A DNA stretch of 42,256 nt from Acidobacteriota bacterium (lineage in GTDB: Bacteria > Acidobacteriota > UBA6911), in NCBI GenBank assembly GCA_017860135.1, contig JAFNAG010000057.1, positions 1 to 42,256 of the forward strand, given 5' to 3'. Below, one piece after another: positions 705 through 24,843 of the stretch (position 1 is its first letter; each line of letters opens with the position of its first letter). The notes under the pieces are model-generated. The model did no database searches, was not told where the DNA came from, and was given only the letters and a program-made list of their open reading frames with translations. Position numbers and translations under genes: made by a program.

Positions 705-3167
705 ATGGCAGGCTTGCTTCAGGATCTCCGCTATGGTTTCCGACAACTCGGCAAGAGCCCCGGGTTCCTGGCGGTCGCGATTGCCATCATGGGACTCGGC
801 ATCGGGGTGAACACCGCGATTTTCAGCCTGATCAACACAGTCTTATTCTGCTCCATTCCCTACCGGGATCCCGCCGGGGTAATCCGGATTTACACTAAAT
901 CCGCGCAAAGCCCTGATTTCAGCTGGATGTCCTATCGGGAGTTCTGCGACCACCGGGACGGGACGGATGTCTTTTCGACAGCGGCAATCGCCAGCGATGG
1001 GAAATTGCTGACGATCCTTTCCGACGGAAAACCGGGGGTTGCCACCGGCGAATTTTTCTCAGAGGGATTCTTATCTCTCCTGGATTTCTCCCCAACCATT
1101 GGCCGAGTTTTCATGCCCGCTGAAAACGAGCCGGGTTCGGAACCAGTGGTTATTATCAGTCACTCGCTTTGGCAACGCAGGTATGGTGCGGATCCGAACA
1201 TCCTGGGCCTGGCCATCTCCATGAACGGCCACCCTGTCACCGTGATCGGGGTGGGGCCGAAAGGATTCAGGGGGACCCTGAAGATATTCACGAGCGACTA
1301 CTGGATGCCCCTGGGAACGGCTGCGGTCATCAGTCCCATTAATCTGGAAAGCCGCGACAACCGTGACTTTCGCATGTTTGCCCGCATGAAACCAGGCATT
1401 GCCATCGAGCAGGCAGAGGCCAGGCTCAACACCTTGGCGGCAAATCTGGCAATGGACTATCCGGAAACCAACAAGGATCGACGGGCGGTTCTTTTTCGCG
1501 CCACCGAAATCTGGCTGGATCCCCTCGTGGACAAGGCGCTCGTGCCGGTCTCCGCATTCCTGCTGGTCGTCGTGGGGCTCGTGCTTGTCGTAGCCTGCTC
1601 CAACCTGGCCGGACTGCTTCTGATGCGCGCATCTTCCAGACTCAAAGAGGTGGCCATTCGCCTCGCAATCGGCGCCGGCAGGCGGAGGATTGTGCGCCAG
1701 TTTTTGACCGAGAGTGCGCTGCTCGGGCTGATGGGGGGCGCTTTTGGCCTGATCGTCGCCCTGTGGTTGGCGGACGCCTTTTCCACCCTCAATGTCCCAC
1801 TGCCGGTCAGCCTGCAGATCGATATGAGACTCGATTGGCGGGTGCTGCTTTATGCCATATTCCTGTCGATCGCCACAGGCATCTTCTTTGGTCTGGCTCC
1901 GGCTCTCAAGGCAACCAGGCGGGACATTATCGTTACCATCAAGGACGATGCTCCCTCCCTCATGACCGAAAGAAGGCGCTTCAACCTCCGCAACATTCTC
2001 GTTGTCGCGCAGGTTGTGGTCTCCGTAGTCCTCCTGGCCGCAGGTGGATTGTTTGTCCGTGGCATGGGAAGGGGACTCCAAGCGGATCCAGGCTTCCAAA
2101 CGGAGCATACCGCCATCGCTGCGATTGATGTTGAGGTGGGCGGATACCAGGAGGAGTCTGCAGGCCGTGCGTTTTATCAGCGATACGTCGAGAAAATATC
2201 TTCATTGCCTGGAGTCCAGACGGCCGCCCTGGCGAGTCGCATCCCCTTCGGATTGTGGGGCAACCGGAAAGTACGTATCCGATTGCCTGGAAAAAACGTC
2301 GAAAACAACGAACAAATCCCCAGAATCGATTATGCCGCCGTAACATTAGAGTATTTTGGGACCATGGATATCCCCATACTGCTGGGCCGGAATTTCGCAC
2401 TGTCCGACACACGCACAGCTCCCCGAGTCGCCATCGTCAGCGAAGCGATGGCCAGAAGATTTTGGGGATCCGCGAGTCCCGTGGGAATGCCGATCCTGTT
2501 GGGAGGCATGGGCCGGGAAGAGTCCATAGAGGTGGTCGGCGTCGCCCGTGATGTATACCTGGAAATGGACTCGATCCGAGGGGAGAGCATACCATTCCTC
2601 TACCTGCCCTTTGCGCAGAGTTACTCGGGAGACATGATCGTCATCGCGCGCACCTTCGACACTGCGGACGGCATGCCTGAGAAAATGTTGCGCGAACTCC
2701 GTGCCCTCGATGCAAGGGTTCCGGCATTGGAAGCGGAAACGATGAAAGAGCATCTACAGGCCAGCTTTTTCATGCATCGCGCCATAGCCGTCTTTCTCGC
2801 GGCCTTCGGCATCCTGACGCTGATCCTCGCCGGCATTGGCCTGTACGGGTTGGTTGCATTCTCCGTGTCACAGCGCATGCGCGAAATGGGAATACGGATC
2901 GCTCTGGGAGCGCAGGCGACACAAGTGGTCAGGATGGTCCTGAGCCAGGCGATATGGCTTATTATAGCCGGCTTGATCATCGGATTGCCTCTCGCCGGCC
3001 TGGTGATGTATCCGTTATCAAAGGCGCTGCTCGGTGTCTCGGCCTTTGATCCACTTACATTCGCCGGGATCGCACTCCTCCTGGCGGCGGTAGCCGTTCT
3101 GGCCGGTTATGTCCCGGCTCGACGGGCCACCAGGCTGGATCCCATGGCAGCGCTGCGCAACGAGTGA
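705..3167 (+). CDS. ADOP-family orphan ABC-type permease (MacB/FtsX-like), copy 1
   Basis: The protein has 820 residues. I start it at ATG 705 rather than 633 because GGCGGGAG lies just upstream and because family proteins begin with this type of short helix followed by a first membrane segment (residues about 16-45). A MacB-like extracytoplasmic domain follows. Membrane segments lie near residues 281-305, 340-358, 380-401 and 430-453, then a second extracytoplasmic domain, then three C-terminal segments near 692-720, 741-768 and 786-805. The cytoplasmic loops show the FtsX patterns EVAIRLAIGA and EMGIRIALGA, so the MacB unit is duplicated. MacB relatives drive export of peptides or lipoproteins across the envelope with a separate ATPase. 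No ATPase gene is adjacent, which is typical of the acidobacterial duplicated orphan permease group. The substrate is unknown. A second, divergent copy lies at 7830-10238 on the other strand. Confidence 0.9.
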   Translation: MAGLLQDLRYGFRQLGKSPGFLAVAIAIMGLGIGVNTAIFSLINTVLFCSIPYRDPAGVIRIYTKSAQSPDFSWMSYREFCDHRDGTDVFSTAAIASDGKLLTILSDGKPGVATGEFFSEGFLSLLDFSPTIGRVFMPAENEPGSEPVVIISHSLWQRRYGADPNILGLAISMNGHPVTVIGVGPKGFRGTLKIFTSDYWMPLGTAAVISPINLESRDNRDFRMFARMKPGIAIEQAEARLNTLAANLAMDYPETNKDRRAVLFRATEIWLDPLVDKALVPVSAFLLVVVGLVLVVACSNLAGLLLMRASSRLKEVAIRLAIGAGRRRIVRQFLTESALLGLMGGAFGLIVALWLADAFSTLNVPLPVSLQIDMRLDWRVLLYAIFLSIATGIFFGLAPALKATRRDIIVTIKDDAPSLMTERRRFNLRNILVVAQVVVSVVLLAAGGLFVRGMGRGLQADPGFQTEHTAIAAIDVEVGGYQEESAGRAFYQRYVEKISSLPGVQTAALASRIPFGLWGNRKVRIRLPGKNVENNEQIPRIDYAAVTLEYFGTMDIPILLGRNFALSDTRTAPRVAIVSEAMARRFWGSASPVGMPILLGGMGREESIEVVGVARDVYLEMDSIRGESIPFLYLPFAQSYSGDMIVIARTFDTADGMPEKMLRELRALDARVPALEAETMKEHLQASFFMHRAIAVFLAAFGILTLILAGIGLYGLVAFSVSQRMREMGIRIALGAQATQVVRMVLSQAIWLIIAGLIIGLPLAGLVMYPLSKALLGVSAFDPLTFAGIALLLAAVAVLAGYVPARRATRLDPMAALRNE

Positions 3168-16172: not shown

Positions 16173-16229
16173 TGGAGCGCGGGCCTCCCGCCCGCATCTC
16201 CACCTTTGCGGGCGGGGCGCCCGCGCACC
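16173..16229. repeat. GC-rich palindromic repeat, copy 1
   Basis: TGGAGCGCGGGCCTCCCGCCCGC and GCGGGCGGGGCGCCCGCGC form an imperfect inverted pair with an 11-base loop. Related pairs occur at 24093-24230 and 31080-31140. It lies between the converging thioesterase and thymidine kinase genes and could also act as a terminator hairpin for either, though no T run follows. Confidence 0.55.
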
Positions 16230-21790: not shown

Positions 21791-23977
21791 ATGCCTATGA
21801 CACGAAAGCTCGCTTTTTGTATGATCGCTTTGCTGGCAGCACTCGGACTGCGTGCCGAGCAGGGGATGTGGATGCCGCAGCAGATCCCCGCACTGGCCCC
21901 ACAGCTGCAGGCCCTTGGTTTCAAAGGAAATCCCAAAGCGTTTGCCGACCTCACGGGTCAGCCGATGGGAGCGGTCGTGTCGCTGGGCGGGTGCACGGCA
22001 TCCTTCGTGTCGCCCGACGGCCTGATCGTCACCAACCACCACTGCGTCACGGGCGCACTTCAGTACAATTCGACTCCGGAGCGCAACCTGCTCAGGGATG
22101 GATTCCTCGCCAAAACCCGGGATGAGGAGTTGTCGGCAGGCCCCGGCCAGCACGTTTACATCACCACTTCCTTCACGGAAGTGACCCGGGCCATCACGGG
22201 CAATATCGATCCGAAAGCCGCCGACCGGCAGCGCAGTGAGATCATCGACCGCAGGATGAAGGAACGCGTAGCGGCCTGCGAAAAGGAAGGCATGCGCTGC
22301 AACGTGGCCTCTTTCTTCGAAGGGCTTCAGTACTTCGAAATCGCCCAGCTTGACATCAGGGACGTGCGTCTCGTCTATGCGCCGGCCGAGGGGATAGGGG
22401 TTTTCGGCGGGGAAACAGACAACTGGCGCTGGCCGCGCCACACCGGAGACTGGAGCTACTATCGCGCCTACGTGAACAAACAAGGACGGCCGGCAGCCTA
22501 TGCGAAGGAAAACATCCCTTACAAGCCCAAGCATTGGCTTCAGGTCTCCGCTGAAGGCACGAAACCGGGGGAACTCGTCTTCGTGGTGGGATATCCCGGC
22601 CGCACCCAGCGATACCAGACCTACGCGGAGGTGAGGGAAACCACCGAGTGGTCCTTCCCGCGCTCTGTCCGCCTCGCACAGGAGCAGCTGGCGGTCATTG
22701 ACAAACTGCTCGCCGGCAACAAGGACCTTGGCATCAAGGTTGCCAACCGCATCCAGAGCCTGAACAACAACATGACCAATCAGAAGGGCATGCTGGAAGG
22801 GCTGGTAAAGGGCGGCGCCCTCGCGGAAAAGGCGGCACAGGAAAAGGCCCTGGCTGCCTGGATTACAGCCGACCCCGCGCGGCAGAAGAAATTCGGCGAT
22901 GTCCTGCCCGCGCTTCAGGCCATGCAGACGGAGGGGGAGAAAACCCGCGAGCGAAATGCGGTCATGGGAAATCTCTCTGCAGCATCCTCGTTCCTGAACG
23001 CAGTGCAGACCCTGTACCGGCTCTCCGTGCAGCGTCCGAAGCCTGATCTGGACCGGGAAGCAGGATATCAGGAACGTGACTGGCCACGCATCCGCGAAAA
23101 CCAGGAGCGTCTGCAGCGAACCATGGACGCCACCGTGGACCGGGTGTTCCTGCGCTGGGCGATGGGCTTGGCGGCGGCACTCCCCGCGGGACAGAGAATC
23201 GAGCCTTTGGACCGGGTGGCCGGATTGAAAGCCGGAATGGCCGGGCCGGAAGCCGGCAGAGCGATCGACGCCTTCCTCAACAAACTCTACGCGGGCACCA
23301 GGATCGGCGACAGGGATTTCCGCATGGGACTGCTCGAAAAGAGTACGGCGGATCTTACCGCCGTGAATGATTCTTTTATCGCTTTCGCCGCCGCCTTGGA
23401 GCCCCTCGCCGAATCGATCCGGGAAGCCGGCAAGGATCGAGCCGGAGCATCCTCACGCCTGCGTCCGCGCTACATGGAAGCGATGCTGGCGAAAGCCGGA
23501 GGCCTCGTCGCACCCGACGCGAACAGCACCCTGCGCGTCACCTACGGCCAGGTCATCGGCGTCGATGCCAAGGACGGACTTTTCTACAAGCCGCAAACAG
23601 GGCTGAAGGGCATTCTCGAAAAGCAGACTGGCGAGGGGGATTTCAATGCGCCGCAGAATCAGATCGAGGTCATCCGCAAGTTCCTGGCAGGCGCCAGGAA
23701 GTCTCCCTACACCGATCCGGCGCTGCATGACGTCCCCGTGAACTTTCTTTCGACGGTGGATACGACAGGAGGCAATTCAGGGTCGCCGACTCTCAATGGG
23801 AAGGGCGAACTCGTGGGCCTGCTGTTCGACGGAACCTACGAGTCCGTTGCCTCAAATTTCCTTTTCGACAACGTGAAGACCCGGTCCATCCACGTAGACA
23901 GCAGATACATGCTGTGGAACATGAGCGAGGTCGACAACGCGGTCAATCTCCTCAAGGAAATGGGAGTCGTCAGATAG
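21791..23977 (+). CDS. S46 family dipeptidyl-peptidase (DPP7/DPP11-like), exported
   Basis: The protein has 728 residues, with AAAGGAG upstream of ATG 21791. The signal peptide is MPMTRKLAFCMIALLAALGL. The chymotrypsin-like triad is visible: His in TNHHC (residues 83-84), Asp in TDNWRWPRHTGD (about 210-220) and Ser663 in GNSGSP. Length and the long helical insertion between His/Asp and Ser are typical of S46 enzymes, which remove dipeptides from the N-terminus of peptides in the periplasm. The specificity residue near Ser663 was not assigned, so DPP7 and DPP11 types cannot be told apart. No operon partner is clear. It starts 97 bases after the purine phosphorylase stop. Confidence 0.95.
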   Translation: MPMTRKLAFCMIALLAALGLRAEQGMWMPQQIPALAPQLQALGFKGNPKAFADLTGQPMGAVVSLGGCTASFVSPDGLIVTNHHCVTGALQYNSTPERNLLRDGFLAKTRDEELSAGPGQHVYITTSFTEVTRAITGNIDPKAADRQRSEIIDRRMKERVAACEKEGMRCNVASFFEGLQYFEIAQLDIRDVRLVYAPAEGIGVFGGETDNWRWPRHTGDWSYYRAYVNKQGRPAAYAKENIPYKPKHWLQVSAEGTKPGELVFVVGYPGRTQRYQTYAEVRETTEWSFPRSVRLAQEQLAVIDKLLAGNKDLGIKVANRIQSLNNNMTNQKGMLEGLVKGGALAEKAAQEKALAAWITADPARQKKFGDVLPALQAMQTEGEKTRERNAVMGNLSAASSFLNAVQTLYRLSVQRPKPDLDREAGYQERDWPRIRENQERLQRTMDATVDRVFLRWAMGLAAALPAGQRIEPLDRVAGLKAGMAGPEAGRAIDAFLNKLYAGTRIGDRDFRMGLLEKSTADLTAVNDSFIAFAAALEPLAESIREAGKDRAGASSRLRPRYMEAMLAKAGGLVAPDANSTLRVTYGQVIGVDAKDGLFYKPQTGLKGILEKQTGEGDFNAPQNQIEVIRKFLAGARKSPYTDPALHDVPVNFLSTVDTTGGNSGSPTLNGKGELVGLLFDGTYESVASNFLFDNVKTRSIHVDSRYMLWNMSEVDNAVNLLKEMGVVR

Positions 23978-24058
23978 AGCCTTGGCTCAGGATCTACCCG
24001 GGAGCAAGCTTCGACCCAATGGAATGGCTGCCAAACGAAGGATTACTCGTTTTGAAGC

Positions 24059-24295
24059 GCGCGGGCTGAAGAGGGTGTCCAACGGTTGATCCCTGGGAGC
24101 GCTGGCGTCTCGCCCGCAAAATCCGGCTGCAAAACATGATTTTCGACTGCGGCATTCACCGTGTGTGACGTAAAGGCCCTGTCCGGTGGAGCTTATGCGC
24201 ATGTTGCGGGCGGGACGCCCGCGCTCCCAGGACGGCCGTAAGCCAACCCAGGCTGGCAGCAAAATCAACCGTTGGACAGCCTCTTCAGCCCGCGC
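24059..24295. repeat. nested inverted-repeat element (MITE-like) C
   Basis: Outer arms of 32 bases at 24059-24090 and 24264-24295 match at 31 positions as inverted copies (core GCGCGGGCTGAAGAGG). Inner arms of 27 bases at 24093-24119 and 24204-24230 match at 25 positions (core GGCGTC-CGCCCGCAA). The inner arms start only two bases from the outer left arm, with 84 bases between them. No ORF fills it. The inner arms belong to the GC palindrome family also seen at 16173 and 31080. This is the best preserved element of the window. Confidence 0.8.
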
Positions 24296-24331
24296 TCACA
24301 TGGTTTCAGCCCGCGCGCTTTCAGCCTTTGG

Positions 24332-24843
24332 CTAAGGTCCCACTGGCAGGCGAATGATGGTTTTGAGTTTGGCCGGGGCAACCCTTCTCGGATCGCTGAT
24401 GTAAATCTCGTGTGCGGGGCAGACCGCAGTGAGGCCCTTAGCCGCACCACGCCGGCAACGTCCAGCTCTCTCTTCCGGCGGATCTCAGCTGCGGCCTTTT
24501 TAAGGTCGCTTGATGTCACCGCATCGGGAATGCGAATCAAGAGTTGCCACTTCCATTCGGATCGGGGCAGGGTATCGGGGTTCTCGATGCGCCAGAGGCA
24601 TTCCAGCCTGCTAACGGCGAAATCCAGCTTTCCCTCGTATTTGAGCATGAATTTCGTGGTATAGGCTACTGTATACAGCTTCTGGATGGCTTCCTGGAAG
24701 GCAGGCCCGCCGGGCTCTCCCTTCCCTTCCACCGTCAGGAAGGTCGCCTTCCCGACTGCCAGTTCCTTAACTTTGGAAGTGGCGGAGTAAAGGTCCTTGT
24801 GGATCTTGCCGAAATCGATTTTTTCCGGCTTTTGAGTTTTCAT
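24332..24843 (-). pseudogene. GyrI-like small-molecule-binding protein, frameshifted with internal deletion
   Basis: From ATG 24843, with GGAGG eight bases upstream, about 130 residues follow the GyrI-like family. They include KIDFGKIHKDLY, a central FQEAIQKLYTVAYTTKFM, and SEWKWQLLIRIPD. Near 24430 the frame fails. A second frame then supplies the family ending, HEIYISDPRRVAPAKLKT and IIRLPV, with its stop at 24332-24334. The stretch of about 35 residues that should link GLTA to HEIY is missing. The uncorrected frame instead runs into element C and picks up an artificial tail. Intact relatives bind small hydrophobic molecules; this copy is presumed inactive. Confidence 0.75.

Follow-up and report, generated by a model that had tools for sequence, protein, structure and literature searches.

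Bacterial MITEs such as RUP, NEMIS, Nezha and MITEAba12 are short, non-coding, intergenic sequences with terminal inverted repeats, which occur in dozens of copies and show target duplications at the family level. Several IS elements (ISPsy8, ISRm22, IS1397 and ISPpu9/10) target REP sequences, which they split at a fixed position, some of them at the symmetry axis, with nearly all copies lying in REPs and with short direct repeats that are imperfect in some cases (PMC1525189). ISPsy8 inserts at the symmetry axis of its REP with a duplication of 3 bp, while ISRm22 makes a 6 bp duplication at the axis of palindromy, some of these duplications being imperfect, for which recombination between copies has been proposed (PMC1525189). 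REP and BIME sequences, described together with REP-associated tyrosine transposases (RAYTs) and the GTAG superfamily, are short palindromes, dispersed in the genome and asymmetric at the 5' side, and TIRYTs, in which long inverted repeats flank a tyrosine transposase, have been reported in Acidobacteria (PMC3733652). The Acido-Lenti-1 motif (RF01687) was interpreted in the original paper as a probable RNA without a cis-regulatory role (PMC2864571).

We analysed a stack of inverted repeats in positions 1 to 42,256 of contig JAFNAG010000057.1 from an Acidobacteriota bacterium (assembly GCA_017860135.1); this whole stretch of 42,256 nucleotides is referred to as the window, and the genome to which it belongs is a fragmented draft of 6.05 Mb in 715 contigs. 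The stack contains a small, non-coding, MITE-like mobile DNA, one of dozens of relatives in its own genome. In the reading that we favour, with a probability of roughly 0.85, a transposase acting in trans inserted this element into the loop of a REP-like hairpin (REP-A), and the element carries a nested doublet of a second dispersed repeat (REP-B). The element resembles bacterial MITEs in its short length (213 bp), its terminal inverted repeats, its intergenic position and its dozens of copies with a family-level target duplication, but it differs from them in being highly selective for hairpin loops, in having an interior built from other dispersed repeats, and in that its autonomous partner was not found among the transposase genes searched. 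It shares with the REP-targeting IS the splitting of a REP at a fixed position, the location of nearly all copies in REPs and short direct repeats that are imperfect in some copies, whereas the inserted DNA is here a non-autonomous MITE and an unrelated palindrome serves as the target in a relative. REP-A and REP-B are comparable to REP/BIME palindromes in their dispersal and asymmetric 5' side, and REP-B forms inverted doublets, but the tag of the GTAG superfamily is not present in REP-A, the tags being GTGA and GGGAG instead, and no linked RAYT was found in the assembly. In standard siblings the interior is filled by an inverted pair of RF01687, which is absent from the window copy, where the REP-B doublet is found instead. 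The family is new; the type of element is already known, and is seen here in unusually clear layered form.

Layout of the stack and its neighbours

The stack is located between a convergent S46 peptidase gene and a GyrI-like pseudogene (Table 1). A previous sequence-only reading had described two nested inverted pairs, and the repeat search returned both at the same positions, the inner 25/27 core noted at that time falling within a 34-nt arm; a third pair, outermost of all and perfectly matched, was absent from that reading. As the repeats were found as placed and the fold of 24055-24320 (-158.7 kcal/mol) is far better than those of 200 dinucleotide shuffles (-107.1 ± 5.0 kcal/mol; z = -10.4; 0/200 as good), the stack is real and not a product of chance. 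The outer and inner pairs had been considered unrelated, and each does belong to a different dispersed repeat family, but the proposal of one element is replaced by three nested repeat families. The stretch had been described as free of ORFs, which is true insofar as it contains no gene; mechanically predicted ORFs do overlap it.

Table 1 Features of the repeat stack and its flanking genes, with positions in the window.
Feature	Position	Strand	Basis
S46 peptidase gene	21791-23977	+	PF10459
REP-A palindrome 3' half (target): stem GCCCGCGC, conserved tail GCTTCAAAACGAGTAATCC	24040-24066	-	matches solo REP-A
Outermost inverted pair, 16 nt, 100%	24055-24070/24305-24320		repeat search
Outer inverted pair, 32 nt, 31/32 matching (97%)	24059-24090/24264-24295		repeat search
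Left loop 4-mer TGAA; place of the 4-bp target duplication in siblings	24067-24070	.	no direct-repeat match to right 4-mer
Left terminal inverted repeat TIR1 GAGGGTGTCCAACGGTTG of MITE-like element	24071-24088	+	TIR1 search and pair analysis
MITE-like element, 213 bp, non-coding	24071-24283	.	TIR1 bounds; 24 arm pairs in own genome
Inner inverted pair, 34 nt, 88%	24092-24125/24198-24231		repeat search
REP-B left copy; core GGGAGCGCTGGCGTCTCGCCCGC at 24095-24117	24092-24125	+	repeat search and genome search
REP-B doublet spacer; left part AAAATCCGGCTGCAA..GATTTTCGACTGCGGC common to TIR1-less doublet on C341	24118-24205	.	
REP-B right copy, inverted; core 24206-24228	24198-24231	-	repeat search and genome search
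MITE-specific stretch with small hairpin, common to composites on C177 and C330	24232-24265	.	
Right terminal inverted repeat TIR1 GAGGCTGTCCAACGGTTG	24266-24283	-	TIR1 search and pair analysis
Right loop 4-mer TTCA	24284-24287	.	pair analysis
Split REP-A palindrome 5' half: tag GTGA, stem GCGCGGGC	24288-24299	-	matches solo REP-A
Additional REP-A half AAGCGCGCGGGCTGAA, outermost arm, partner 24055-24070	24305-24320	-	third inverted pair
GyrI-like pseudogene, end ~24335	24335-24843	-	

The adjoining GyrI-like gene had been noted as broken, in agreement with the internal deletion and frameshift that we observe within the gene. Its C-terminal codons (HEIYISDPRRVAPAKLKTIIRLPVGP and the stop) are preserved in a different frame and stop ~15 bp short of the repeats; neither the repeats nor the MITE broke the gene. 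The GyrI-like name is a reading of the sequence of a broken frame without a Pfam match, and is best considered putative. Orthologues of the S46 gene in two other genomes (81% in G001, 73% in G005) have no such element downstream, but the genes beyond S46 also differ in both, so that this represents absence of the element and not a true empty site.

Elements with TIR1 ends in hairpin loops

Comparison of the stretch with its own genome gave 89 matching pieces, which fall into three repeat families. REP-A, with the structure GTGA-GCGCGGGC-TTCA-GCCCGCGC-GCTTTAAAACnnnTTA, is present in ~50 exact solo (empty) copies, most of them with a TTCA or TTTA loop and usually with the asymmetric flanks GTGA...GCTTTAAAAC. 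It is a dispersed short palindrome, its position between genes being established for the window copy only. Among solo copies with two substitutions, 10/18 are Watson-Crick compensated, with two kinds of change only, perhaps representing two old events. The flanks of the MITE-like element in the window are the two halves of one REP-A repeat, and only 20 nt of each 32-nt outer arm are terminal repeat proper, 8 nt belonging to the REP stem and 4 nt to its loop.

The two TIR1 copies in the window match at 17/18 positions. A search with TIR1 (GAGGSTGTCCAACGGTTG) at ≤1 mismatch retrieved 52 arms from the own genome, the reversed pattern used as a control giving none, and a REP-A stem and 4-nt loop directly precede the TIR, at the same offset, in 58/69 arms examined. 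Across 24 TIR1 pairs, the left and right loop 4-mers, compared as direct repeats, match at 72/96 positions and are identical in 9 pairs (shuffle mean 48.7; 0/20,000 shuffles reached 72), but compared as inverted repeats they match at 45/96 positions only. A few of these pairs are non-independent (one element on two contig ends and one locus counted twice), which leaves the picture unchanged. This agreement as direct repeats across the family indicates that the 4-bp loop of the hairpin was duplicated as the target site. The sequence-only reading had suggested a non-autonomous mobile element, which is borne out by the 52 arms and the family-level direct repeats, in addition to the lack of a transposase gene in so short an element; the search that it proposed for copies of the outer arm with target duplications gave many copies, with duplications at the level of the family and not in the window copy. 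The 4-mers of the window copy (TGAA/TTCA) match at 2/4 positions as a direct repeat and at 4/4 as an inverted repeat, mixed loop repeats are also present in other TIR1 copies, and decay or recombination between copies is a possible cause of the missing direct repeat. The target duplication is therefore a property claimed for the TIR1 family rather than for the window copy.

The entire outer arm, including the REP-A half, might instead be the terminal repeat of one element, with the solo palindromes as deletion products, as the 32-nt arms of the window match through the REP-A half and this arrangement is that of most copies. Against this, the outer ends are asymmetric (GTGA versus GCTTTAAAAC) like those of solo REP-A, the 4-mers are direct rather than inverted repeats, and TIR1 is also found in other palindromes and sequences, including a copy at L003. 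TIR1 copies outside REP-A include one flanked by TTGT/TTGT (L112) and one by ACGA/ACGA within GGGC-ACGA-GCCC (L028). In the relative G013, which belongs to the same family as the window genome, the same TIR is located in the loop of CCGGCC-TGAA-GGCCGGG (L048), and TIR1 is also present beside GTCGCGGC halves. Since TIR1 elements outside REP-A follow the 4-mer rule too, and the same TIR splits another palindrome in G013, the palindrome and REP halves are the target and not part of the element, and a terminal repeat spanning the whole arm is, in our assessment, the least probable of the readings.

Under the preferred reading of insertion into a REP-A loop, the REP-A hairpin repeat would have been present first, between two convergent genes, and the MITE-like element with its 18-bp TIR1 would have inserted at the REP-A apex, in the 4-nt loop, with a 4-bp target duplication. 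The length of the duplication suggests a transposase of DDE type acting in trans, which may recognise the symmetrical or extruded hairpin. The REP-B doublet would have come to lie inside the TIR1 element and the composite would have spread, a TIR1-REP-B junction being common to at least three places. In favour of this reading are the repeat families and their copy numbers, the loop position, the family-level 4-bp direct repeats, the occurrence of the parts apart from each other, the shared composite junction, the absence of such an element behind the S46 orthologues and the precedent of IS insertion at a REP apex; against it are the window copy without a direct repeat, the lack of a TIR1-ended transposase gene among those searched, the lack of a true empty site and the fragmented state of the draft genome. 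Homing of a MITE to REP-like hairpin loops would explain nested inverted repeats that can be taken for an RNA structure, by eye as well as by folding software.

REP-B and Acido-Lenti-1 as interior repeats

REP-B (GGGAGCGCGGGCGTCCCGCCCGC) was found at 25 places in the own genome (≤2 mismatches), several of which are inverted doublets; it also occurs alone, and is missing from most TIR1 elements. A doublet with a homologous spacer (AAAATCCGGCTGCAA..GATTTTCGACTGCGGC) is present on contig C341 with no TIR1 nearby, with more doublets on contigs C237 and C273. The junction between TIR1 and REP-B that lies in the right half of the element has counterparts on C177 (91%) and C330 (84%), where the outer flanks are unrelated; as the junction is shared and the flanks differ, the REP-B doublet appears to have become nested in a TIR1 element, with the composite spreading afterwards. 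Another REP-B-like unit (TGGAGCGCGGGCCTCCCGCCCGC, 2 mismatches) is located elsewhere in the window, at 16173-16195 (+).

Most siblings have an inverted Acido-Lenti-1 RNA pair where the window copy has the REP-B doublet. The standard sibling element measures 283 bp with its REP-A stems, and within it lie two RF01687 matches in inverted orientation, the scored copy falling just below the gathering score; other copies in the own genome are well above it, and nearly all own-genome matches among those listed are at TIR1 arms. RF01687 is present in 31/60 genomes, where tens of copies are common (at least 84 in the highest case), and minus-plus pairs 142–154 bp apart recur in the own genome and its relatives (L052, L053, L057, L059 and L207-L246), with about fifteen such pairs in G024 alone. 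In several genomes such pairs are enclosed by differing longer inverted repeats (CTGGGTGCAAACGGAAGTGAGAGTCAA in G012, CGGTATCTTCTCAATAAATCGG in G016, a 38-nt repeat in G007 and GTGTTCATTYCCAGGACATCCTTTACA in G024), which are indicative only, the outer-repeat finder having missed many pairs and one cross-genome control having scored 19. A different nesting order is found at one locus of G012 (L235, contig C304), where REP-B-like arms (CTGGGAGCGCCGGCG..) enclose an Acido-Lenti-1 pair.

Inverted pairs within mobile shells fit a DNA repeat, while there is no obvious reason for an RNA gene to be arranged in this way. Judged by this arrangement, which is found in many Acidobacteriota, RF01687 is probably not an RNA gene but a dispersed repeat of the DNA, and its suggested status as an amplified DNA repeat would affect the automatic annotation of small RNA in Acidobacteria. 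We give an even chance to the broader proposal that RF01687 is half of a ~180–200-bp inverted-repeat DNA element, present in tens of copies in many Acidobacteriota and repeatedly enclosed in lineage-specific shells, of which the TIR1 line would be one; the window copy would have the shell of this line with a REP-B doublet in place of the core, shell and core being exchangeable. Exchange of terminal repeats and of core hairpins seems to have taken place among this set of elements.

A structured transcript had also been suggested for the window copy. A small RNA or mRNA 3' element between the convergent genes, with its long hairpin under selection, would be consistent with the very stable fold, with the location and with the two RF01687 matches found in siblings. 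However, the arms of 21 element pairs present 0 shared versus 34 one-sided substitutions, and the variable fifth base is unmatched; as the arms do not covary, a selected long RNA helix is unlikely, and the strong selection for folding proposed earlier is not supported. Each end conforms to the consensus independently of the other, as expected for transposase-binding ends. No Rfam match, promoter-like site or terminator-like site was found in 23900-24450, and the window copy has no RF01687 covariance-model match above the gathering score. In addition, the element is absent downstream of the orthologous S46 genes and the same parts are found in other combinations elsewhere, and we consider a structured RNA at this locus very improbable.

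Candidate transposases, age and distribution

No autonomous partner with TIR1 ends was found among the Y1, DDE_Tnp_1, DDE_Tnp_1_6 and rve genes, in a draft assembly that is broken at repeats. The own genome has no DDE_Tnp_1_6 gene, and none of the DDE_Tnp_1 and rve loci whose ends were inspected in four genomes has TIR1-like ends. Neither of its two Y1 genes is flanked by TIR1, REP-A or REP-B in this incomplete assembly, one being IS200-like and the other RAYT-like. The RAYT-like Y1 transposase (L042 on contig C693 of the own genome, ~1396-1977, minus strand, 194-codon frame) has inverted REPs of the sequence GTGAGGACCGGTCTCCAGACCGGTCC on both sides, which represent a third REP family, tagged GTGAG. 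TIR1 arms that lack a partner and have a long interior were considered as a possible autonomous element and proved to be truncated copies. Two TIR1 copies separated by 1.2 kb and flanked by TGAA/TGAA (L083, 1501-2722, on contig C109 of G005) were rejected as an autonomous element, as the interior contains no recognisable transposase, only a protein fragment without a Pfam match.

The locus could alternatively be a REP/BIME cluster only, spread by a RAYT without DDE-type transposition. Both REP-A and REP-B are REP-like, with inverted doublets in the case of REP-B, the own genome has the RAYT-like gene between inverted REPs with a similar tag, and TIRYTs offer an Acidobacteria precedent for tyrosine transposases with long inverted-repeat flanks. 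However, Y1 (HUH) transposition of the IS200/IS605 family is not known to produce a target duplication, whereas TIR1 pairs show 4-bp direct repeats, and TIR1, REP-A and REP-B are missing from the flanks of both Y1 genes; spread by a RAYT without a DDE-type step is thus unlikely.

For the MITE-like element that we prefer to see as inserted in a REP-A loop, there is no sign of recent movement. Full-length TIR1 elements are 87–90% identical to one of their number, composites are 84–91% alike, several TIR1 copies are truncated and the duplications have decayed. The recent activity previously deduced from the high identity of the arms is not supported, given the 87–90% identity between full-length copies, the decayed duplications and window 4-mers that do not form a direct repeat, and at present the element is probably inactive or moves only rarely.

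The distribution of TIR1 is narrow, with matches at ≤1 mismatch in 5/60 genomes (own included); G013 has ten such places, and the other genus member has five. Exact TIR1 matches outside the own record were found at 9 places in the genome collection scan, 4 of them in G013. Five TIR1 relatives in G013 (L043, L046, L048, L051 and L105) have a second nested terminal repeat (GAGACTGTCTCAAAACTC) together with GTCGCGGCTTCAGCCGCGAC palindromes, a nest deeper than that in the window.
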